Part shown: positions 1,826 through 63,530 of the stretch, piece after piece
How the letters are laid out: each line of letters begins with the position of its first letter
Numbering within the stretch: the first letter of the stretch is position 1
Assembly: GCF_003473485.1 (NCBI RefSeq)
Contig: NC_053047.1
Span: 40,472,972 to 40,536,971 of the forward strand
Source: Medicago truncatula
Taxonomy: Eukaryota; Streptophyta; Magnoliopsida; Fabales; Fabaceae
Length of the DNA stretch: 64,000 nt
Direction: 5' to 3'
Program-made: the position numbers and the translations under genes
Notes under the pieces: model-generated
What the model was told of the DNA's origin: nothing
What the model saw: only the letters and a program-made list of their open reading frames with translations
Databases searched by the model: none

Positions 1826-3188
1826 CTCAGTTGACTCAATCATGCTTTCAATTGTCATTCGGTTAGTGTTGAGCAAGTCATCTGATAAAGACGCGGAGCT
1901 GTTCGTTGAAATTTGGCTGACACTTCGGGTGAACTGTATTGATGCATTTTTCATTCTAATAAAATGGCACCAATGTTAATAGAAGAGTGGTGAGACCTCC
2001 AGACAACTTAATTATGACCAAAAAAACTTGTCTTTATTCTAAAGCATATGAAAATATAAATGGTTACCGTGTCATGTACGCAGCGACATCAGGCAAATCG
2101 CCATTAAGTATCAGCTTAGTCCCATTAAAGGCATTAACAACTCCCATAGCACCTAATTTTTTTAAAAATCAACAGCAAGTGAACATAATTTCCCATTTCA
2201 TTGTTGATATCAGCAGAAAGCAAAAACTTAAAACACGACATACCTAAATACACGCGTGTCTTGCAAAACTGCAATATCAATATAGTAGGTGTGTCGTTGT
2301 CATGGTTGCCAAAAAAGGTCACAATTTTGTCGCCATGTTCACCCCAAAGAGAGCAATGCAAGCGGTTGTTTCTGTAATAAAATATTACCAAAATATCAAT
2401 TCAGAAACATAAGGTATATTAAAATTATATTACAACCAGGTACAAAGAAAGAGACAAATCTTACTCAAGATCTTCTAAAGTGAGATCAATAACCCTGCTT
2501 TTCCTTCTGTCCTTTTCAGTTTCCCTTATATCACCTCTTTCAATTACATGACCAATAACATCTGAAATTACGTATACAAAAGCAAAACCAAATGTATGAA
2601 ATTCCTAAACGAATGCTTATAGGTAGAAATAATGTACAACACACATTCAGAATTCAAGTCCTACCCGTAGATACTTCCTCGACAGTTGAAGAGAGAATTT
2701 CATTGAATGGCTTGAACTCAAAAACGTTCATAGGGATAGCAGGCAAGTGTACTTTGGTAAAAGTTGAATTGTGCATCATACTAAGCTTATGTTTGTGTGA
2801 AGTTACCTTATAAGGACTTTCATTAAAATCTACAATTGCATTTTCAAGCTGATATGTACCCCCTTCTTGAACCATGGACCTGAACTTTGCCACCAAATCT
2901 TTTCTAGCTGTGGCGTGAATACGTCCACCCTGTTGACGACAACAACAACATTAAACAGCTGGTTAAATTACATAACTAAAAAACAAAAATGACATTACTT
3001 TAATTTTAAAGTTAAGAGTGCAAACATGCAGAAACCTTTTCATCGACCAGTAACATGTTCATGAAAATGATGCTAGTGGGGACCTTCTTTTCTCGAATCA
3101 ACCAAATGTGAGCAACTCGCACACACATCTTGAGATTCTTTCTTCCTCCAGAAACAGCTGAGATTGGAGTGTATTTGGCAGACATCAT
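1826..3188 (-). CDS. Helitron-borne replication protein A 70-kDa-like (OB-fold) gene
   Basis: Six exons can be read on the minus strand, from an ATG at 3188. Exon 1 (3188-3036) gives MMSAKYTPISAVSGGRKNLK. Exon 2 starts at 2929 and gives GGRIHATARKDLVAKFRSMV and VHLPAIPMNVFEFKPFNEIL. Later exons give DVIGHVIERG, TLEDLE, the tryptophan-glycine stretch CSLWGEHGDK and GVVNAFNGTKLILNGDLPDV. This is the layout of plant RPA1-like proteins: an N-terminal OB fold, then the DVIG...L.D..G....TLWG block of the second OB fold. Such proteins bind single-stranded DNA, and plant Helitrons often encode them. GT-AG splice sites keep frame where checked. The C-terminal zinc-ribbon domain is absent: after exon 6 (ends 1826) the sequence passes into the helicase remnant, so the protein is probably truncated or fused. 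Confidence 0.7.
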
Positions 3189-3489
3189 TGGCTTGTTTTT
3201 TCCTTTCCAAGAAAGAGGATGCTTATTTAGATTGAGATGGTTTGGCTAATAGGTTATGATATATTTATAGGAAAAAAGTGGAATATGTGTGAGTAGGATA
3301 TGTCGGTTGAGCAATAAAGAGTATTAGTTATCAGGATAAGCACAAAATAGTGGAACAAAATTAGGAAGTGGCCAACATTTTAGGATAAAGATTAATATGA
3401 ATAAAATGAAATTAATATTGTTGATGGGGCACTTTGTTTTAATTAAGAATTTACATTTTTTTTTTACTTAAGAATTACCATAGTTGATT

Positions 3490-4580
3490 CGCCAAAACAT
3501 ATTTTAGAGATGTGGATGAAATGTGTAATAGTTACTTGAATGAGATGAATTATGATTTTTAGTTTGTTTCCACCCAAAACATATTTTAGATATGTGGATG
3601 AAATCCCCTACTTATTTGAATGAGAGAAATAAGGATTTTCGTTTGTTTCCACCAAAAAGTTACTTTAGAGATGTGGATGAAATCTCTTAGTTACTTGAAT
3701 GAGAAGAATTAGGATTTTTAGTTTGTTTCCACCGAAAACATATTTTAGAGATGTGGATGAAATCCCCTACTTATTTGAATGAGAGAAATAAGGATTTTAG
3801 TTTGTTTCCACCAAAAAGTTAGATTAGAGATGTAGATGAAATCTCTTAGTTACTTGAATGAGAGAAATTAGGATTAGGATTTAAGTTTGTTTCCACCCAA
3901 AACATATTTTAGAGATGTGGATGAAATCTTTAGTAGTTACTTGAATGAGAGGAATTAGGATTTTTAGTTTGTTTCCATCCAAAACATATTTTAGAGATGT
4001 GGATGAAATCTTTAGTAGTTACTTGAATGAGAGGAATTATGATTTTTAGTTTGTTTCCACCCAAAACATATTTTAAAGATGTGGATGAAATCCCCTAATT
4101 ATTTAAATGAGAGAAATAAGGATTTTAGTTTGTTTCTACCAAAAACTTAGTTTAGAGATGTGGATGAAATCTCTTAGTTACTTGAATGAGAGAAATTAGG
4201 ATTAGGATTTTAGTTTGTTTCCACCCAAAACATATTTTAGAGATGTGGATGAAATTCCCTAATTATTTGAATGAGAGAAATAAAGATTTTAGTTTCTTTC
4301 CACCAAAAAGTTAGTTTAGAGATGTAGATGAAATCTCTTAGTTACTTGAATGAGAGAAATTAGGATTAGGATTTTAGTTTGTTTCCACCCAAAACATATT
4401 TTAGAGATGTGGATGAAATTCCCTAATTATTTGAATGAGAGAAATAAGGATTTTAGTTTCTTTCCACCAAAAAGTTAGTTTAGAGATGTGGATGAAATCT
4501 CTTAGTTACTTGATTGAGAGAAATTAGGATTAGGATTTTAGTTTGTTTCCACCCAAAACATATTTTATAGATTTGGATTA
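3490..4580. repeat. Minisatellite, about 13 units of about 80 bp
   Basis: Thirteen or so units of 77-87 bp, each with GTTTGTTTCCACC, then a TTTTAGAGATGTGGATGAAA block, then ACTTGAATGAGAG. Two variants alternate in much of the array (ACATATTTT with CCCTAATTATTTG, and GTTAGTTTA with TCTTAGTTACTTG), giving a dimer of about 163 bp. It lies inside the Helitron, between the RPA-like gene and the 80-codon gene. Confidence 0.9.
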
Positions 4581-12772: not shown

Positions 12773-15700
12773 TTATGGTTGCGGTTCTGGTTGTGTCTCA
12801 TCTTCAATTGTCAAAATTTTGCACTTTGGAGTTAAGGAATTTTTGTGATTCATGATTAAATTGAATTCTTGTATATCTTGTTTACATACCCAACGATAAC
12901 CGCAACTCTCGACCTCCAAACCTTCCACCTCAAAAAATTTTAATTCTATTTTTCCAAATTCATGACAGGAATACCCGGGGTACTCTCGGGGTAAGTAGAT
13001 AATCCATAGGTGACTTGATTTGGTCGTAACAAGACTGAGCTTTACTGGAACTCTCATTTTCAACAACCTCTCATTGGAATCAATACGCTTGAAAGCCAGA
13101 TTCATCAACTCCGAGGAATAAAAAATTTCACGATAGGGTGCCATCGTAAATGCTGCACAACATACAATACCAATGATATTATTGTCATTGTCATGCCTAA
13201 TAGGAGATCGGTCTATTGCTATTGAATAACCCATCCTCTGATTGTTGATCCAACTTGGTATTTCACTTCCTGGATTAACTATTTGAATCTCAGAAGAGGA
13301 ACGTGGGTTTGCCTTAATGAATTGTTTCATCCATAAAAGTGTCATGCTCCTGCAATGTTCCCTCTCACCCAATTTTGGACAGTTGAAAATGAGCAATCCT
13401 GCACCACAAAAATAGTCGTCGTACTCACGATGAACCTCCCCAGTATTGGTAGGAAAAGGAAGTTGAGGCAAAGATTCCAACAATTTGCAATGCTCCAAAT
13501 TTAAATATACAAGTTTGGATAGCTTCCTCAGGCTAGGTAATGTCACAAAATCGTTTCCCGCTAAATTTAATCTTTCTAGCCAATGTAAACATTCAATTGC
13601 ATCAGGCACATGGCTTAGATAGCAAAAGCTTATGTCAACCTTACGCAAACAACATAAACTATGCAAGGAAGGCAACATATGTGATGAATCGTGAGCCAAA
13701 ATGATCCATTTTAGGCCAGGGAGGTGATGTGATGCACTTTCACGTATATCATGCTGCTGCTTCTTTTCTGAGGATATACCAGACTTCATCAAACGCCTTG
13801 GGTTGTTAAATACTTTGGAACAGCCACACATATTTAGGTATTGAAGAGAGCTAAGACCGAATATGTTGTTGGGTATGCTAACTAGACTTTTGCAATCTTT
13901 TAGGTTCAAGTAAACAAGCTTTCTTAGAAGTCCAATAGATGGATCCAACTCAACAAGGTTTATACATCCTTCCAAATCTAAACGCTCAAGATTCGGGAAC
14001 TCTCCAAAATCTATTATCTTTTCTAGATTTCTGGAGTGACGTAGATCCAATGTTCTCAAATTGGGAAGATACTGTGACGTGAAAAACCAACAAAGTTAGC
14101 CATTACTTTGATTGTAAGAGAATTGTTTTGAATTTGTTTATATTTCTAAGATGATAAATATTAATAATAATAGAATTTATAGTACCTTCTTGTTTTTCCA
14201 TAGTTGTTTAATGTTGCTCTCCGTCAAGATCAATTCTACAAGTTCATTGGGGTGAAAATTTGATGGCAAATACTTGGAAGGATATCTAAACCAGTGAACA
14301 AATCTTAATTTGTTCGAAAGACAGCTTGGGAATCCTAACATCGTTGAAATATAGTTGGCGATGAAGAGCAATCTGAGATTACTCATTTTTGACAAGTGTT
14401 CAAAGTCCGCCTCTTCATCTTCTTTGTAATACAAAACTATGGCTTCAACATGCTTTTCCTAAAGCATTGCAATAAATAAAATAAAAAATAAATTACTTTT
14501 AATATTTTTAGTTTTATAAAAATGGAAATATGTATTTTTATTTCAAAACATTAACTTTACCATATTCTCCAACATAACATCGTAGAGTTGTTCTGTGGAC
14601 CACAACCTGCTCCATTTTCTTGGTTCTTTGCTTGAACTATTTTGCACAATTTTTCTGCCTAGCTCTTCCAACAAAGAATGCATGTTAATAATTGAATAAC
14701 TAATGCTTACAAGTGATTTATCAATGAGAACTCTTAATCCAATATCAGCATGAAATCCACAACAGTTTAGAATGTTTTTAACATCTTCCTCCGAATCGTT
14801 GTTGAAAAAACAAGCAATATGAAGAAATATGTCTTTTTCCGTTTCATTGAGCCCATCAAAACTTAATTGCAGCACATCCATGACATCTTTAACTGGACTT
14901 TGTCTCAATCTAGTCAATGCACTCTTCCATTCAGTCACATTACGACCAAACAAAAACGAGCCCAATACTTTAATTGCTAGTGGTAGACCTTTAGCATAAT
15001 GTAGTATCTGATCTACCAAATTTTGATAATTACTCATAATAATTTTCTCATCTTTGAAAGCTTTTCGACAAAATAACATGTGAGCTTCATTCCAATCCAA
15101 TAGTGAAACTTTGTAAACTACATCCACTCCATACGCTTTCAATACATGCTCATCTCTAGAAATGATAATAATTCTACTACCTGGACCTAACCATTCACGA
15201 TGCACCGCTATTTTCTCCAATTGTTCAACTTGGTCCACATTATCAAGAATCATAAGGGTTCTTTCATGACATAGCTTCCTTTGTATCAAAGTAGTTGCAT
15301 GGTAACGATTGCATATTTGTTGGTGTTCTATGCCGAGAGTTTGAAATAGGATTTGTTTTTGTACATCGAGTGGATCATCATGTAATCCATAAATTTTGGT
15401 TACATCGTCAATAAAACAAGATGCACTAAATTGATGAGATATTTGGCCATATAAAGTCGTAGCAAGGGTTGTTTTCCCTATTCCTCCCATTCCACAAATT
15501 CCTATAGCACGAACACCATCAACTGAGTTCAAAAGCAAATGATTTTGTAATGCTTGTATAGGAGAATCAATCCCAACTAAATCTTTTGAAACACATGAAT
15601 ATTTGCATTCCAATATATTGATTATCTTTTGAACAATCTCTTTAATTTCTCTAGCTAGTGGCCTGAAAGTTCAAAAAATTGTTCAGTAACATTATATCAT

Positions 15701-16351
15701 CGTGTATAAAAAAAAAATTAGTTTGAACACCAAATATTTGTTCTAAAGGGAAAACAAAAAAAGTACTCTTTGAATTTATATCGTAGACTCATGCATCATC
15801 TCTTCACATTCACCTTATATTTTCTACCAAAAAAAACTATAAATTACTTACTCATCACGTAGATCCCAACCAGATATACTCCCCACTTGCTCTAGAGCTT
15901 CTCTCCATCTTGACACCTTCATAGAGTCTTGTTGGAATCTTTGTTCATGTTTGACAAAAGCTTCACTATAAATTCCACTTTGCTTCCGCACCTCAGAAGG
16001 ATCAACATCATAGAAAACAGGAAGAACATGTTTTCCCGACCCCTTAATGCATTCACATATCTTTTCTAATTCTTGCAAGCACCACGTTGAGGAAGCATAG
16101 TTCTTTGAGAAGATCGCAACGTAAACCTGAGATATTTCGATTGCACGAAAAAGCTCAGGTCCTATGCATTCACCTTTTTGAAGATTAATGACATCCCGAA
16201 ATACCATAATGCCTTTTGTTTCAAGGGCATCAAAAAGAAAATCAGTGAAATTGTTGCGAGTATCTTCACCTCTAAAGGTGACAAACACATCATAATGATT
16301 TTTCTTTGAAGAAGTCACAAGAGCTGAAGATGATTTGCTGCTGCTAGCCAT
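12773..16351 (-). CDS. TIR-NBS-LRR disease resistance protein (TNL), 1057 aa
   Basis: Intracellular immune receptor of the TNL class, which senses pathogen effectors; the TIR domain acts as an NADase in signalling. Four exons join in frame: 16351-15852 (TIR), 15662-14561 (NB-ARC), 14458-14186 and 14071-12773 (LRR and C-terminal domain). The TIR begins near residue 19 with YDVFVTFRGEDTRNNF. The NB-ARC has P-loop GMGGIGKTT (about 224-232), kinase-2 LMILDNVD, RNBS-B GSRIIIISR, GLPLAIKVLGS and RNBS-D FLHIACFF. The MHD position reads MHS (about 494-496). LRRs span about 570-760. The end carries NPGSEIPSWINNQ, typical of the post-LRR C-JID domain. The ATG at 16351 starts MASSSKSSSA; an upstream in-frame ATG exists but precedes the usual TNL start. 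It appears intact. Confidence 0.93.
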
Positions 16352-16439
16352 CTGAATATACAAGTGTTTAGAGGATTGGATATGGTAACGTGATTTTTTT
16401 TTTTTTTTGGTTAGAATATGGCAACGTGAATGCATCACT

Positions 16440-16465
16440 TCAAAGAAAGCATATATATATTAATA
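16440..16465 (-). promoter_or_regulatory. Putative TNL core promoter (TATA region)
   Basis: On minus an AATATATATATGC run lies about 100 nt upstream of the chosen ATG at 16351, a plausible TATA box; the transcription start is not visible. Confidence 0.35.
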
Positions 16466-43724: not shown

Positions 43725-46624
43725 TTAAGTTGAAGGAACTCTTAGCTGAGAAATAGGAACAGGAAGTTGTTCTTCAGAGAAGTACTTGTCATGAAGTAAC
43801 TCCGCCGCAGTGGCTCTCTGAGCTGGATCATAACAGAGCAATCTTTTGACCAAGGAAACTTCATCTTGCAAACAATTTGGCATGCACGCGTCAAGACCAA
43901 TAGGGTTTTCCACCTTATTAAAAGAAATTCTTGCATAATCAGGAAGTTTAGAACAACCACTCCAAGCTTCCTCATCGAGATTACCCAAAACACTAATGAT
44001 TCTACTAATCTGATCAATATCACCTGTTCCAGGAAACAAAGGCTTCAATGTTAACAACTCAGCGAAGACACATCCTAATGACCAAAGATCAACCTCTAAA
44101 CCATAATTAGTTGATCCATAAAGTAGTTCAGGTGCCCTAAACCATCTAGTTCCAACACATGATGTGAGGAAACCATCTAGTTTTTCATCCCTCTCTTCAT
44201 TTGCTTCATATGGCAAAGAATTCTTCCAAGCATCATCGTCGTCGTCACTAGTTGTGCATGTTGCACGGCACGAGTTGTTACCGTCATGCGTGTTGGTGTC
44301 CTTATCATCAGTGTCATATGTGTGACTCTGAATTTTCAGCTCATCTAACACTCTAAAATATTCATCATGAGTCATTCTTTCCTCCTCGTCTTGATTTTCA
44401 TATCCAGTTTGGTTTGCATTGTCTGATAAGGGAATAACATCATGAGGATGTTGGGAATGGGATGAACTTCCATGATTTGTTGCATCAAATCCAGACTTCA
44501 CAAGTATCCTTGCCTGAAAAAAGTAATCAAATTAAAAACGTTCATAGTAGATCAGGAAGCCAATCCCTCTAAAAACAAAGAATCACCTTAGAATGCGTCA
44601 AAGTAAAATTAAACACAAGCAAACACACCCCAAAGAACACAATAAAGAGCTATATGGAAAACACTAAAATCATTGTGGGAAATCACGGTGGACATTGAAA
44701 CTTCTAAAAATCACGATGTGATAACTCTAAACTAATGGTGGCGATTTCCCATCACTCAACCAAACACACACAATCATTATTTCTTTAATCTACATCCAGA
44801 ATGTGGATTTGTACCAACAATCGACCCAAATAACACATCTCTGTCCAAAACTTTAAGAAAACGATCATATGGATCATCTATCCTATATACTATTCATTTA
44901 ACTTATTTATAGTCAAACCTAAGTTTTCACACTTGAGTTTCAACATATGATAGTGTATGTTTGGATTAACTGTGAATTTGGAGAAATCATAGCGTGCTAC
45001 CGTGATTTTAAGAAAAACTACGCATTGAAGCTTCAACCAAACTCAACGTGAATCCAAACATGCACTAAAATTGCAACATTCAGTGGAAGCTAAGCTAATG
45101 CCACAAATTGCAATAATCCATGATTAACCCAAATCACATTACACAAGCAAATTCTAAAACGGTACATTTTGAAACTATAACCACACTCAACATCCCTCCA
45201 AACATGCACTAGGGTCATTTTTGGATAAACAACTTAATTAGCAACTTATACCATAAGCGCTAATCATGTTAACTGTTAAGCATGTATGTATAATCTATTT
45301 CTATAACAATTAACAAAAGAGAAAATAAAGTTAAATTGTTTATATCTAAACGATAAACTGTTTTCATAAGCTATCTTGGGGAGCCTATGAAAATAAGCGT
45401 AAAACAACTTATAAACATGTCCTAAGCTGTTTTCATAAGTTCTCTGAAATAGTCTCACAAATACATATGTCAGTAGATAAGCTCAAATAAGTCAACCCAA
45501 ACATCCTAAAATTGTGTCATTCAGTTAAAGATCAGCTATTGCCACATAACTGCAATAATCCATGAACACAAACCACATTACACAAGCAAATTGCAAACAA
45601 AAAATATCAATAAAGTGAGTCACCTAACAGTGAATAAGCTCATAACTCAAGTAGTTAATAAACTTCATTCAACAACAAATCATTCGGAAAAACTCGGGTT
45701 CAAATCCTGACTATAACAACTAACTATTAGTCAAACTTTACTTACCTCCTGACCTTAGTCTGGATTACCAGAGCCCAAAGCCCAAGAAACACACTCATAA
45801 AACCAAGTGATTTGTAGTTAATAAACTTCACTGGCCGACAAATCATTTGAAAAAACTCAAATCCTGACTAAAACTATTCTTAATCAAACTTTACTTATCT
45901 CCCAAGCCAACTCCAGATTAACGTAGTCCGAAAAACACACTCATTAAAATCAAGTCATTTAACTCAAATAGTTAATAAACTTCATACCCGAATTCAAATC
46001 CGGACTAAAACAAGTCTTAGTCACACTTTACTTACCGACTAACCTAACTCCGAATTACCAGAACCCGATAAACAGACACTCATTAAAAAGCAAACAACAT
46101 AAAACAAAACACACAAATGAAGTAAAAAAACACAAAGATCAAAACTTTATAACAAAAACCTGTCCAAAATCAGCAATTTTCAAAACCCCATTTTCCGAAA
46201 CCAAGAAATTCTCCGGCTTCAAATCTCTGTGAACAATCCCATTCCTATGACAATCATAAACCCCACTAACAATCTGCATCATCCACCCTTTCACTTCACC
46301 ACCACCAAACCCATCTCTGATCACAGTACCCAGATCACTCTTCAAAAACTCCAACACAATCACAGCATCTTCATCCTCTCTCCAGAAGAACTCATGCATG
46401 AAAACCACGTTTTCGGAGCCCCGAAGAATGCGTAAAGCGGTGATTTCTCGTGATGCTGATTGGTGATCGTGGATTTCTTTCAACGCGACGGGTGTTCCGT
46501 CGGAGAGACGGCGGCCGCTGTAGACGTCGGAGTAGGTGCCGGAGCCGATGTGGGTGAAGATGGAGTATTTGGTTGTGATTTCGGGTCGGGTATGGATGCT
46601 CCAACTTTTTGTTGGAGGATCCAT
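43725..46624 (-). CDS. CDKF;1: CDKF;1-like CDK-activating kinase, 417 aa
   Basis: Plant-specific CDK-activating kinase that phosphorylates T-loops of other CDKs, including CDKD. Two exons (46624-46160 and 44513-43725) join in frame to 1254 nt. Motifs: Gly loop IGSGTYSDVY (about 26-35), catalytic Lys in VALKEIH (49), HRDLKPENF (132-140), DFG (152-154), GTRWFRAPELLYGSTNYG and DLWSLGCVFAELL. Between DFG and GTRW lies an acidic, Ser/Thr-rich insert of about 110 residues (with SDDDDDAWKN), the hallmark of CDKF in which the activation segment is lengthened. The PSTAIRE-type helix is replaced by SASREITAL. Arabidopsis CDKF;1 is longer (479 aa from memory). Its single 1.6-kb intron holds a MITE and a triplicated repeat. 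Coding sequence looks intact. Confidence 0.92.
45211..45507. mobile_element. TGTTTGGAT-type MITE, copy f (CDKF;1 intron)
   Basis: Left end AGGGTCATTTTTGGATAAAC and right end AAATAAGTCAACCCAAACAT, with the same core as copies a-e. Confidence 0.8.
45645..46100. repeat. Three tandem units of about 150 bp in the CDKF;1 intron
   Basis: Each has TAGTTAATAAACTTCA, CAAATCC(T/G)GACTA, AGTCA(A/C)ACTTTACTTA and AACACACTCATAAAA-like blocks. The first unit has GGGTTCAAATCC, which resembles an RNA polymerase III B box, so a SINE that became tandem is possible. Confidence 0.65.
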
Positions 46625-46951
46625 GTTCAATTTTCTCAAATATTGAAAAAAATTAATTATAACAAAATGAAAATAAAAGAAGAAATTTTGAGTTTTGGAG
46701 AATTTTTGTGAATGGTGTGTGACTTTCAACTTTTAACACTCTTTGATTTCTCTTTGGGTTTTCAACTCTTTATGTTATTGTTTGTCTTCATTAGTCGCAC
46801 AGTTTGTTATTTTCTATTATTTTTTTCTTCTTAATATTTCTAAATTATTATTCAATTCAATTGATTCTATTAATGGTATAGGACCACATGATGTTATGAA
46901 CTCATTCACTTTCTTTTAATTTGCCTAAGGCTATGTTTGGATTGATGGGTT

Positions 46952-47874: not shown

Positions 47875-49199
47875 ATGATTAATGAAGACATGAGAACAAA
47901 ACATTTGAAATTGCTTCAAATGATGATTGTTCAAGTATCCATCATTATAGTTCTAATATTTCGCCTAAAAAACAAGTCTAGATCTCAAATACCCTCTAGA
48001 ATCATAGAGCATAGAGAGAAAGTTAGGAACGAACTAATGAAACATATAATAGGTAGTGACCGATGTTATGATATAATTCGTATGAGTCCCAAAGCTTTCG
48101 TAAACTTGTGCACCTTATTACGAGATCACGGTGGGCTTACACATACACGAAGAGCATCTATCGAGGAACAAGTAGCCAAATTTCTTCACACAGTCGGACA
48201 TAACGTCAGAAATCGTGTGTTGTCCTTCTTCTTTAGACGCTCAGGTGAAACAATTAGTCGTCATTTTCATAGAGTATTAGATGCTTTGATAGAATTGGAA
48301 GACAAATTTTTGAAACAACCTGATGGAACACAAGTGCCTCCAAAGATACGTAACAACAATAGGTTCTACCCATATTTCAAGGTAAGAATAAGTTTGTCTT
48401 ACACTTCGATAAGTTATGTTATACACTTTTAATGGGATAATTGAATGCCAGGATTGTATCGGAGCAATTGACTGTACACATATACGTGTCAAAGTTCCAA
48501 CAGAACTTGCACCTAGATACCGTGGTAGAAAAGATTACCCTACACAAAATGTACTCGCTGCGTGCACATTTGGCTTGAAATTTACATATGTCTTGGTTGG
48601 ATGGGAAGGAACAGCATCAGACTCAAGAATAGTAAAGAGTGCTTTGACACGTCGGTATCCTCTTAAAGTCCCGCAAGGTAACGAAAAAATACAAAAGCTT
48701 TTTATAAGTATGTAGCTTATCCAAACTAATAGACTCATTATTTTCTATAGGAAAATATTATCTTGCTGATGCGGGGTTTCCTTTAAAGGCATGTCTCATC
48801 ACACCTTATAGGGGAGAACGTTACCACTTACAAGAATATTCTAGAAATCCACCTCGAAACCCTCGCAAGTTGTTCAACAATCGACATTCATCGTTAAGAA
48901 TGTCTATTGAATGTGCATTTGGAGTGTTGAAGAAGATATTTCCAATTCTGCAAACTTCAACTGAACCCACATTTGAAATTAAAACTCAAAATAAAATCAT
49001 TGTTGATTGTTGCATCTTACACAATTATTTGATGACTGAAGACCCTAACCAGAATCTAATAGACGAGGTGCGTCACGAGCTCACAAATGAAAGCGGTTTG
49101 CAAGAGGGACATCAAGCTCAAAGAGAAAACAATGATGATACCGCTAGAGGAGAGCTAGTTAGAGCTGATGTTACTGGTTCAATGTGGATAGCTTACTAA
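47875..49199 (+). CDS. Harbinger transposase (DDE_Tnp_4), 393 aa
   Basis: Cut-and-paste transposase. Exons 47875-48381, 48452-48677 and 48751-49199 join in frame to 1182 nt with GT-AG borders. The N-terminal part has SDRCYDIIRMSPKAFVNLCT and the helix-turn-helix-like FLHTVGHNVRNRVLSFFF with SGETISRHFHRVLDAL. The nuclease triad is complete: Asp176 in CIGAIDCTHI, Asp226 in GWEGTASDSRI and Glu298 in SSLRMSIECAFGVLKK. LADAGFPL and CCILHNYL are further family motifs. Length fits the family. The start at 47875 is the first ATG after a likely 5' UTR intron acceptor. In this superfamily it acts with the Myb-like protein encoded downstream. Confidence 0.93.
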
Positions 49200-49490
49200 A
49201 AAAGTGTTTGAAGGCCTCTCTTTCAAATATGGAGTGTTCTTAGGCTATTTAGGCTAGTTTATTGGTGTTTGTTTTGATGTTTTGGGCTTATGTTTTGAAG
49301 CTTAACGTGTTGCCATTTGTTTGAGTATGAAAACTGACACTTTGTTGATACTAATGTGAACTTGGGGAATCTGTTTGCAATCTGAATCTTAATTTTTAGT
49401 GCTTGGAATCTTCATATTTCAACTTGTGCTTGAGTTTGTAATTTGTGCTTGAATTATTATATATGTCGTTTGTTTTTTTTAATATTAGAT

Positions 49491-50539
49491 ATGGAAGAAA
49501 GTGCAAAGAGGCCAAGGAAATGCAAAGGTCCTGATACTTGTAATTGGACTTTAGCTATGGATGAGGTATTGATTGATGCATATTTGCATCAACATACTCT
49601 GGGAAATAAAAATGGTAACAGTCTGACATCATTTGCAATGGATAGTATTTTTCAAGAGCTGAAAACTCACTTTCCAGACAAGCCAATTACTAAAGACAAG
49701 ATTAAAGATCACATGAAAAATATCAAAGCAAAGTTCAATCCTTGTTATGATGTTTTCAAGAATGGTCTGAGTGGGTTTGCATGGAATGCAGAGACAAATA
49801 TGTGGATTGCTGAAGATGAAGTCTGGGAAAGTCTAATTAAGGTATTATTTACTTCAACTGAAGTATTTTTTTTTTATCAAGTGTACATGATAAGTTTTTT
49901 TTTTTTTTTATGTAACACTTTGTTTAATTTACGAAATTGTAGACAAAACTCGTAGCTGCTGAGTGGAAAAATAAGCCTATTATGTTTTATGATAAACTAG
50001 CAACTCTTTTTGGGAAAGATCGAGCAACAGGAGATGATGAAGATACAGGATTTGAAATGAGAGCAAAAAAAGCTGCTAGTGCTAAAAAAAATTACGGTCC
50101 AACCATTGAGGATATAGACCATTTGGTTGAAACCAATGAAGTTACTTTGGAGGGATTTGAAGTTGATGAAGAATTTGATCCCAATGGTTCTCCTAAAAGA
50201 CCTTCTATTAGGAAGCCTCAAGATGTACCATCATCTAGGAATAAGAAACGTGCAAGAAAGGTGGATGAAGATGAGACAAGCATGAGCGAAATTGCTAAGA
50301 CTTTTAAGAAAATGGCTGAGATGTTTGAACTGAACACTGCAGAGTTGGTCAAACAGAATAAGAGTTCTAGTGCTGAAGATGTTTGGGCTAACTTGGTCGA
50401 GATTGGTGTTGAAGAAGCTTCCTTGCCTTGTGTCTACATGCACCTTGTTCAACATCCAGAAGCATTGAAAGCTTTTAATGGAATTCCAGTTGATAAGCGT
50501 AAGGAAATGTTACCTTACATTGTGCCGAACTATCCTTGA
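49491..50539 (+). CDS. Harbinger Myb/SANT-like DNA-binding protein, 315 aa
   Basis: The second protein of plant PIF/Harbinger elements, thought to bind element ends and bring the transposase into the nucleus. Exons 49491-49841 and 49943-50539 join in frame to 948 nt. The Myb/SANT-like domain has NWTLAMDEVLIDAYLHQHTL, DKIKDHMKNIKAKFNPCYDV and WNAETNMWIAEDEVWESLIK. A basic stretch (RKPQDVPSSRNKKRARKVDE) is a probable nuclear signal. The C-terminus (SLPCVYMHLVQHPEALKAFN, VDKRKEMLPYIV) is typical of plant L10-interacting Myb-like proteins. ATG 49491 directly follows an AATATTAG acceptor-like site. No damage is seen. Confidence 0.9.
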
Positions 50540-53219: not shown

Positions 53220-54925
53220 GCAGCAGCTCCAACAAAATATAACTCATATTCTCTGAGTACAAGCGGTGATGGGTACCAGTAAATACTTGGGGCCACCGTC
53301 TATGGTAGGACGTAGTAAAAAGGCAACCTTTAGCTTCATTAAAGACAGCGTGTGGAAAAGAATTAATAGCTGGAGAAGCAAGTGTCTATCTAGATCCGGA
53401 AGGGAGGTTATGATTAAGTCCATCATTTAGTCAATTCCCTCATATGTGATGAGCATTTTTCGACTTCCTAATTCCTTGCTAGACGGAATTGAGAAAATGT
53501 TGAATGCCTTTTGGTGGGGGCATGGAGGTGCAAGTAATAAAGGAATTCACTGGTTAGCGCGGGACAAATTGTCAGTTCACAAGTGGCATGGTGGAATGAG
53601 ATTCAAAGATCTTGCGGTGTTCAATGTAGCAATGCTTGAAAAGCAAGGGTGAAAATCTCAAACTGAACCAGACACTCTAGTTTCCAAGGTTTTCAAGTCA
53701 AGGTATTTTCCTCATGGCAATTATCTCGGGTCAAAATTAGGACATAATCCTAGTTTTCTTTGGCGGAGCATTTTTAACGCAAAACTGGTTGTGAGGCATG
53801 GAGCAAGATGGAAGGTAGGAGCATGTTATGGCATTCCTATTTTAGGGGAACCTTGGCTCGGTGTTGGCACTAGTATCCCTCCGGTGAATCTAGCACAACA
53901 TATGGCTCTACAAGGTTATTCGGTTGGTCACTTGATTCATCGTGGAGTTGAGTGTTAGAATGAAGAGCTTGTGAGACATGTTTTTGAAGAAGGAACAACA
54001 CAACATATTTTAAATACACCACTGTTTCCACAGGTAAATGATGACAGACTAGTGTGGAAATCAGAAAAGAACGGACAATATTCGGTAAGAAGTGCGTACT
54101 GTTTGTGTATTGAAGACATAGTGGATAATTCTCATCTTAGGAAGAATGGTCATTGGAGTGGCATGTGGAGATTGAAAGTGCCTCCGAAAGTTAAGAGCAT
54201 GGTTTGGAGAGTGTGTAGGGAATGTTTACCTACACGTGCAAGACTAAATCGTAGAGGTGTTATGTGTCCGTCATTGTGTGCCAAGTGTGATGATCCGCAT
54301 GAAGACATCTACCACATTTTCTTCCATTGTTGTACAACAGTAGGCGTGTGGAGAGCTGCTGGTTTATGGGCTGTCATTGAGCCGTTGCTGCACAGATTTG
54401 ACGATGCACATGAGATTATTTTTGCTGTGTTATAACACGCGACAGTAGCGCAACAAGAATTGTTTGCTACAATTTTATGGAGTATTTGGAAGAGCAGAAA
54501 CCTTAAATTATGGCAGCAGGATAGTGAGAATTATCACAACGTTATTGAAAGAGCAAAGCATTTGCTGGAGGGATGGAAATCTGCCAACAGAAAGAGGCAA
54601 GTGGCGCAGCAAACTGTTACAACAGCTGCTGTCACGCTGCCATCTGCTGTGCAGAATGCGAACAACAACATTGCAGGTACCCTATGGTAGAAACCGAGAC
54701 GTGGAAGAGTGAAATGCAATGTCGATGCCTCTTTTTCGATTTCTATGAATAGGTGAGGTATTGGAATATGCATTCGTGACGAAGAGGGGCAGTTCGTGCG
54801 TGCCAAATTTGTATGGTTCTCACCAATGTGCTTAATGGATGTCGGAGAAGCTCTTGGATTGTATCATGCTATGCGGTGGGTTAATGAATTACGGCTACCA
54901 AAGGAAAAGATATTCTTACCTTATT
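53220..54925 (+). pseudogene. Degraded L1-like LINE (RT C-terminus, zf-RVT, RNase H start)
   Basis: Read in the plus frames, about 1.7 kb matches the 3' half of a plant LINE ORF2: SIPSYVMSIFRLPNSLLDGI, then FWWGHGGASNKGIHWLARDK, FLWRSIFNAKLVVRHGARWK, VWKSEKNGQYSVRSAYCLCI, and the zf-RVT block MWRLKVPPKVKSMVWRVCRE with CAKCDDPHEDIYHIFFHCC. The RNase H domain starts with VKCNVDASFSISMNR and fades by 54925. At least four in-frame stops (near 53651, 53957, 54433 and 54688) and a frame change near 53260 show it is dead. The 5' half and poly-A tail are absent. Confidence 0.85.
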
Positions 54926-62098: not shown

Positions 62099-62771
62099 TA
62101 AATTCTGATGATTTTAGCTTTCCACTTTCTTTTTCATGTTTGCATGTTACTAAATACTAGTGTACAATTTTCCATACACCATCTAAATGCTAGTATGATA
62201 CTTTGAGTAGGTTATGAGAATTTTATGCATAGTTTCTTTTATCTTGTCACGTAACTTCAAGAACATTTTTGTGTAGTTTTTGATGCAAGTTCTTTCATCA
62301 TGATTCTCCTGTATAAAATCTTCATGTTTGATAGACAAGAATTTTACCGCTTATTCCATGCATCTTCACTAAGGAAGCTGCTTATTCGTCACGTAACTCG
62401 GTGCAAGAAGATAGAGAAACATGAAGGAAAAAAAAATGGTATGTTGTCTGTCAAAAGCGCTTACAAATCGTGCACTTGTAATATTTTGATAACAATTTGG
62501 TAACGACACTTCTTTCTCTCACAAAATGTTTATAAACACTTTTTTTTAAGTAGTATAATGTATCAATAGTTGACATTTTGACCATATGATTCACACTTAT
62601 CACAAATTATTTCTCTCTTGGCCTACACATATAGTCATATATATCAAATTCTTTCTTGATAATATGATTGTTTAGTTATTTATATAGAGAAATATATTTT
62701 TATTGATATTGAAAATGAGAAATCATTCAAAATTTACATAATATAAAAATCGTAAAGGATAATTTTATATA

Positions 62772-63295
62772 GGATTAAATATGTTTTTGGTCCCTACGTT
62801 TTGCACGATTTTGAGAATTAGTCCTTACATTTCAATAAATGTTTTTAAAATCCCTACATTTTTCCTGAGTTAGTGTAAATAGTCCCTGTTGTCAAATTTC
62901 TAACGTGATGCCAATGTTGGCGGTTCAATCTCGCCGGAAAACGGTGGAGAACTTCACCACGATCTTTCTCCGCAGCTTCGTAGATGCGGATCGCCGGTGT
63001 TCGTCACACTTCCGGTGAAATATGTTGGTTTAGAGGGGAAGATTTGGAGGCCGAAAGCGATGATGTTATCGTTGAAAGCGCTTGTTGTTGCGGGTGTGGA
63101 AGGTGTTGTGGTGGAGATTTGGTGGGGTGGGGTTGAACTTGTTATGATGGCCTGTGTTTCATCAACATGGCACTGATGGCAGGGACCAATTGCACTAACG
63201 GAGAAAAAATGTAGGGATTTTAAAAACATTCATTGAAATGTAGGGACTATTCTCAAAATCGCGCAAAATGTAGGGACCAAAAACATATTTAACCC
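62772..63295. mobile_element. Pack-MULE (524 bp) carrying a beta-amylase fragment
   Basis: Long terminal inverted repeats of about 120 bp (GGATTAAATATGTTTTTGGT at the left; GGGTTAAATATGTTTTTGGT inverted at the right) are flanked by an exact 9-bp direct repeat TTTTATATA at 62763-62771 and 63296-63304, the Mutator-type target size. The roughly 280 bp between the arms are markedly more GC-rich and encode part of a host beta-amylase. No transposase is present, so it depends on a MULE elsewhere. Confidence 0.88.
62946..63137 (+). pseudogene. Captured beta-amylase exon fragment
   Basis: An open plus frame of 64 codons reads GELHHDLSPQLRRCGSPVFV, TLPVKYVGLEGKIWRPKAMM and LSLKALVVAGVEGVVVEIWW then GGVE. 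Plant beta-amylases (glycosyl hydrolase 14, starch breakdown to maltose) have SPVFVTLPVxxVxxEGKxxRPKAMMxSxxALxxAGVEGVVVxxWWGxVE near the start of the catalytic barrel, as in the chloroplast BAM1/BAM3 type. The WWG motif is kept. Catalytic glutamates lie far downstream and are absent. It has no start codon or partner exons here. Non-element identity is clear from composition and the flanking arms. Confidence 0.85.
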
Positions 63296-63309
63296 TTTTA
63301 TATATGGTG

Positions 63310-63530
63310 CCCCCACCATTCAAAAATCATGGATTCGTGACGGCTTTGTGTTGACGTGGAAAAAGGTTAGGCTGTAGGCCTTTTACAGGCTTTGCAAAGA
63401 GCTAGGGTTGAGCAATGTGGATTTTGAACTTGACTCGCAAACAGTGGTGACCAAGTTCAAAAGCCAAGGGAAAGACGTGTCGAAGCATGAAGCTAACCAA
63501 GTTCAATAGATATCGATCAATCTCTTGTTC
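63310..63530 (+). pseudogene. LINE RNase H remnant
   Basis: Plus-frame pieces ELGLSNVDFELDSQTVVTKF and KSQGKDVSKHEA match the second half of the LINE RVT_3 RNase H domain (catalytic Asp in FELDS). The frame shifts near 63405 and a stop lies near 63506. The following frame (HGYVLSTTLPLSHDDYKDRL-like, to 63720) is not recognised. Confidence 0.5.

Follow-up and report, generated by a model that had tools for sequence, protein, structure and literature searches.

A MITE-sized, high-copy Mutator-like element of Medicago truncatula, very probably a shrunken Pack-MULE, with pieces of a beta-amylase-type exon

In the stretch of Medicago truncatula DNA analysed here (64,000 nucleotides, hereafter the window, located at C6:40472972-40536971 in a genome of 430 Mb comprising 42 contigs, eight of them of 43-65 Mb), positions 62772-63295 hold a Mutator-type element of 524 bp. 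Comparison of its sequence with the rest of the genome makes it very probable that this is a Pack-MULE, non-autonomous and Mutator-like, which has shrunk to the size of a MITE and has spread to at least 67 copies. The element is a well-documented case of a known kind of element and not a new kind.

The element is bounded by an exact 9-bp target-site duplication (TSD), TTTTATATA, at 62763-62771 on the left and 63296-63304 on the right, just as a preliminary description of this DNA had reported. Inside the duplication lie a 5' terminal inverted repeat (TIR) of 117 bp (62772-62888, plus strand) and a 3' TIR of 116 bp (63180-63295, minus strand), which are identical in 105 of 117 aligned columns: the limits of the element and the arms of about 120 bp given in that description are borne out by these measurements. 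G+C content is 0.316 and 0.362 in the two arms, 0.509 in the core (62911-63179) and 0.331 in the window. Subterminal sequence (62889-62910, plus strand), for which no match to the donor gene was reported, leads from the 5' TIR to the core; the match to a longer relative, L103, covers element positions 1-146 and the match to the donor begins at 140. Long TIRs together with a 9-bp TSD are the marks of a TIR-type MULE; a fragment of a cellular gene with a traceable donor, taken up as genomic DNA, and the lack of a transposase of its own are those of a Pack-MULE; and the short and uniform length, high copy number, TIRs and A+T-rich targets are those of a MITE. As to the transposase, the element is only 524 bp long, and of two frames (90-91 codons) compared with Pfam only the beta-amylase (BAM) frame found a match.

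The core is made up of three pieces of a BAM exon, all on the plus strand. The first (62911-63137) aligns with positions 3260-3498 of the reverse complement of locus L090, on the minus strand of contig C8, with 204 of 239 columns identical (85% DNA identity, 12 gaps, E 1e-78) and a 12-bp deletion near 62951. Before the second (63138-63154; donor 3541-3557) 42 bp of the donor are missing, with the joint at a TGAA repeat, and before the third (63155-63179; donor 3590-3614; 26/27 identical) 32 bp are missing, with the joint at a CTTGC repeat; TGAA and CTTGC each occur twice in the donor. The 12-bp deletion is located at a GAACTTC repeat, as seen in L060, which – like copies L068 and L089 – retains those 12 bp. 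These joints mark the 524-bp form as a deletion derivative, one of a set to which longer Pack-MULEs also belong; its internal deletions would have arisen during repair or replication of the element. Across the core runs a BAM-like open frame of 90 codons (62904-63176, plus strand), the first in-frame ATG of which is at 63060. The frame matches Beta-amylase 1 of PDB entry 8j5d with an E value of 2.9e-9; its Pfam GH14 match (E 9.6e-4, 18.7 bits) falls below the Pfam cut-off of 27. The likeness of this GC-rich frame to beta-amylase, first noticed from the letters alone, is confirmed by the 8j5d match and by the DNA identity to a gene of the same genome; the best match of the core is a beta-amylase gene. 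What had been called a Pack-MULE carrying a beta-amylase exon is indeed a Pack-MULE, but one with an exon fragment: the exon is in pieces, with deletions of 12, 42 and 32 bp relative to the donor. Part of one exon only is present, and a complete beta-amylase coding sequence is absent.

The donor, a gene of beta-amylase type, lies on the minus strand of C8; the part retained by the element corresponds to C8:46386387-46386741. This gene was identified, along the line proposed in the preliminary description, by alignment to BAM genes of the same genome: a profile search gave 39 BAM exon matches, and the 30 that had loci were checked against the element. Among these 30 loci the C8 gene alone gave a strong DNA match (the alignment above, followed by the two short pieces), and the runner-up reached 78% over 49 bp. 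The frames of the first and last donor exons are open, and the three donor exon pieces compared with NCBIfam gave zero matches. The gene reads FHQHGTDGDDPN, has GTDGDD instead of GGNVGD in the flexible loop, and contains GELRYPS and CFEMQD, which we take to hold the catalytic glutamates. According to the part of the BAM literature consulted, BAM10 is a plastid BAM of most angiosperms with a substituted flexible loop for GGNVGD and a mostly conserved Glu-380 (PMC6394054). Our best guess – unproven, and made by matching this published description rather than from a tree – is that the donor may be of the non-catalytic BAM10 type. A BAM4-like label was dropped, because the same part of that source reports BAM4 to be absent from Fabaceae (PMC6394054). 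The donor had been expected to be a starch-degrading gene; it is of beta-amylase type, and "starch-degrading" is doubtful because the gene resembles the non-catalytic BAM10 type.

Three longer relatives, L103, L095 and L124, hold parts of the same donor exon. L103 (C6:29243532-29244801, 1270 bp) has the same arms and a 9-bp TSD, TTTATTCTT, read by eye. Its donor sequence begins at the presumed start codon, covers exon 1 and enters presumed intron 1, the end of exon 1 being placed from the reading frame and a GTATGT rather than from annotation; since L103 continues beyond this presumed exon end into the intron, it was genomic DNA that was captured. L103 also contains some 400 bp of other sequence (L103:1267-1680) that matches C1:9071660-9072075 at 83%, and L095 (on C1) and L124 (on C4) hold the 5' part of the donor exon only. 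From each of the three, almost the same ~47 bp (donor about 3147-3196) are missing, which suggests that they derive from one capture event. L103 was considered as the direct parent of the 524-bp type and was rejected: it lacks ~36 bp (donor about 3585-3622), 25 of which are kept in the 524-bp type, and on this sequence pattern it is a sister of the 524-bp type and not its parent.

Genome-wide, the 524-bp type together with close variants is represented by at least 67 copies, a lower bound composed of 59 pattern matches less one longer relative (L070/L103), plus two copies from the DNA search and seven met through the TIR pattern. A search of the genome for a 27-mer of the core, allowing up to three mismatches, gives 59 occurrences; since the reversed 27-mer used as a control gives 0, the recurrence of the core is not due to chance. 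The best 40 of 297 candidates in the DNA search are all copies that span most of the element. Computed length is 521-525 bp in 62 of the 67 copies (a few damaged ends were extrapolated). Perfect 9-bp TSDs flank 55 copies, six copies have TSDs with one or two mismatches, and six have none, several of these last being visibly truncated or interrupted. The 55 perfect TSDs comprise 53 distinct sequences, are 94.5% A+T compared with 69% in the flanks, and belong to copies distributed across all eight large contigs. The recurrence of the arms as MULE ends elsewhere, a point that the preliminary description had left to be checked, is thus evident at many loci with 9-bp TSDs; its reading of the element as a capture survives so far as the Pack-MULE is concerned, whereas a single capture without spread is ruled out by the copy number. 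In one copy, L041 (L127, C2:22658900-22661500), an insert of ~2.4 kb interrupts the element at position ~473; it has no long open frames, looks LTR-like and has CCTAC at both of its joints.

Element-free relatives of the window site were sought – as had also been proposed – within the same genome, and were found. When the two flanks of the window copy were joined (TSD at query 152-160) and used as a query, the best match was C6:19742698-19742841, which crosses the joint with 92% identity over query 47-190. By eye, 22 of 62 matches cross the joint, at 70-92% identity; 15 further matches, likewise counted by eye, do not cross the joint but end on it or shortly ahead of it (query 145-161), and count against an empty site. 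The joined flanks match elsewhere without the element, so the window copy sits within another repeat.

Grouping of the copies was based on 56 of the 60 then known (L041, L062, L077 and L088 were left out as damaged) and gave groups of 23, 13, 5, 4 and 3 copies together with eight singles. Mean distance to the consensus is 1.25% in the 23-copy group and 0.62% in the 13-copy group. At substitution rates of 6.5e-9 to 1.08e-8 per site per year these distances correspond to ages of ~1.2-1.9 and ~0.6-1.0 million years, respectively, which fast decay of CG sites would inflate. In the two largest groups transitions per CG site amount to 0.375 and 0.208, those per A/T site to 0.030 and 0.006. The copies are probably methylated, but this reading is no more than suggestive, since CHH sites (0.268) change as fast as CHG sites (0.269) in the 22-copy group (the 23-copy group less L060). 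In a tree of 63 of the 67 copies (without the same four, and drawn with no support values), L060, L068 and L089, which have retained the 12 bp, fall with the 23-copy lineage; given this branching, these 12 bp may have been lost on more than one occasion.

Could the structure be something other than a transposon – a chance inverted repeat, or a BAM pseudogene copied by segmental duplication? Nothing was found in favour of either. The 53 distinct TSDs over 55 copies on all eight large contigs, together with the existence of element-free sites for the window copy, exclude both, and we give them essentially no weight. Less remote, but still very improbable, is that the 90-codon frame is translated, either by itself or within host transcripts, and is under selection. 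Of the 56 tabulated copies, 50 have a frame of at least 85 codons that includes the BAM motif, but its openness fits the youth of the copies, and there is no in-frame ATG before 63060. Purifying selection on the frame was not seen in the largest subfamily (22 copies, L060 excluded): the distinct transitions in the frame are synonymous in 5 cases, non-synonymous in 25 and stop-producing in 2, versus 80, 165 and 9 possible, without an excess of synonymous change, and changes at codon positions 1, 2 and 3 number 12, 18 and 12. The older branches are less clear. When changes were polarised among the donor, L103 and the 524-bp family (258 columns, two three-state columns being uncounted), the donor differed from the state common to L103 and the family by 9 synonymous and 2 non-synonymous changes, which fits the pattern of an intact gene. 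Changes private to L103 comprise 24 non-synonymous, 5 synonymous and 1 stop; 15 of these 30 lie from column 497 onwards, where the tail is misaligned, and leaving them out reduces the counts to 10, 4 and 1. The stem of the 524-bp family carries 6 synonymous and 3 non-synonymous changes (3 of the 9 common to all 11 family rows), and is not clearly neutral. On the preferred reading the captured fragment would be a passenger without a coding role.

A further alternative takes up a suggestion of the preliminary description, namely that the element could give rise to small RNAs against its donor. In principle this is possible on sequence grounds: the donor exon shares 41 exact 21-mers with the window copy and 28-48 with each of five subfamily consensuses, and the predicted fold of the element RNA is strong (-256.5 kcal/mol, z -17.7). 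That the fragment has been kept because small RNAs from the long TIR hairpin tune the donor BAM-type gene is, however, improbable. The fold is chiefly due to pairing of the arms and a comparable one is expected of any element with arms this long; moreover, among the multi-copy groups it is the 13-copy subfamily that has diverged least on average, yet the 28 21-mers that it has in common with the donor are the lowest count, whereas selection for targeting would predict the opposite.

The deletion-derivative Pack-MULE would have been mobilised in trans by a Mutator-type transposase that recognises its TIRs, as we infer from the TIRs, the length of the TSD and the pattern of copies. A 40-bp stretch of the TIR (up to three mismatches) is found at 94 ends in the genome, all in BAM-bearing elements: 81 belong to copies already known and 13 to copies met through the TIR list, and no transposase-bearing partner is present among these 94 close ends. 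Nor do any of 147 listed TIR positions lie within 35 kb of any of 148 MULE transposase hits (the best 150 of 923 candidates, less two on small contigs; for the 25-bp ends, 100 of 1675 positions were listed). The terminal 25 bp, by comparison, occur 1675 times with up to one mismatch, and recognition may depend on these ~25 bp alone, which are common to another abundant family. Every member found through the TIR carries the same gene fragment. It is conceivable, if rather unlikely, that the lineage has outlived its autonomous partner and been moved by the transposase of another family through the shared terminal ~25 bp only; if true, gene capture would be a route to the birth of new MITE families. 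The abundant short elements in question (for example C1:11290146-11290645) share the terminal GGGTTAAATATGTTTTTGGTCCCTA with the element described here, but 15 fetched loci with that terminus match the element over no more than 25 bp and show no match to the BAM exon. Elements of this abundant family are ~500 bp long with internal subrepeats of the GGTCCCT type, and are found at C1:11290146, 15728633, 16475780, 30037177 and other positions.

Long TIRs, a 9-bp TSD, a captured GC-rich gene fragment and the absence of transposase are traits shared with Pack-MULEs in general. In tomato, the one species compared for copy number, the consulted part of the literature gives 14 copies for the Pack-MULE PM-ZIBP (13 tandem-TIR, 1 single), 29 for the element type 2-46 and 1-14 (mean 3) for other single-TIR SLMULE46 elements, from a study that looked for TSDs of 9-10 bp (PMC3310237); the family described here has at least 67. 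The MuTAnT elements of Medicago truncatula are likewise short and Mutator-like, with 218 copies and a foldback structure, but they target TA microsatellites rather than A+T-rich sites in general and have a known putative autonomous element, whereas none was found here; the part of that report consulted mentions no captured gene (PMC4486113). KI-MULE of Arabidopsis, as far as its published account was consulted, is also a high-copy MULE with captured cellular sequence, but it is a non-TIR MULE with a protease domain of 200 residues, as opposed to a decayed small exon piece in a TIR element (PMC2528002). In the literature searched, no paper contains both Pack-MULE and beta-amylase and none the TIR string, and no such family was seen among the entries listed.

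The transition from a gene-carrying element to a high-copy MITE is seldom visible. Here one assembly holds the donor, three longer relatives, the two states of the 12-bp deletion and datable copies, so that capture, shrinkage and spread can be placed in order. There is also a caution for annotation: this BAM-like frame, which recurs in dozens of copies, is not a gene.

Several other features were seen in the window. Just to the right of the element (63378-63509, plus strand) there is a weak RVT_3 match (E 0.006, below the cut-off), and a zf-RVT fragment is located at 53959-54435 (plus strand). A DDE_Tnp_4 transposase fragment, presumably of the Harbinger type, occupies 48708-49199 (plus strand), with adjoining open frames from 47875 to 50539. 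On the minus strand, a protein kinase domain is divided between separate frames at 43725-44531 and 46139-46732, and a disease-resistance-type gene of the TIR-NB-ARC-LRR class is present in pieces at 12773-16459, comprising a TIR domain, an NB-ARC with a Roq1-like winged helix, and LRRs.
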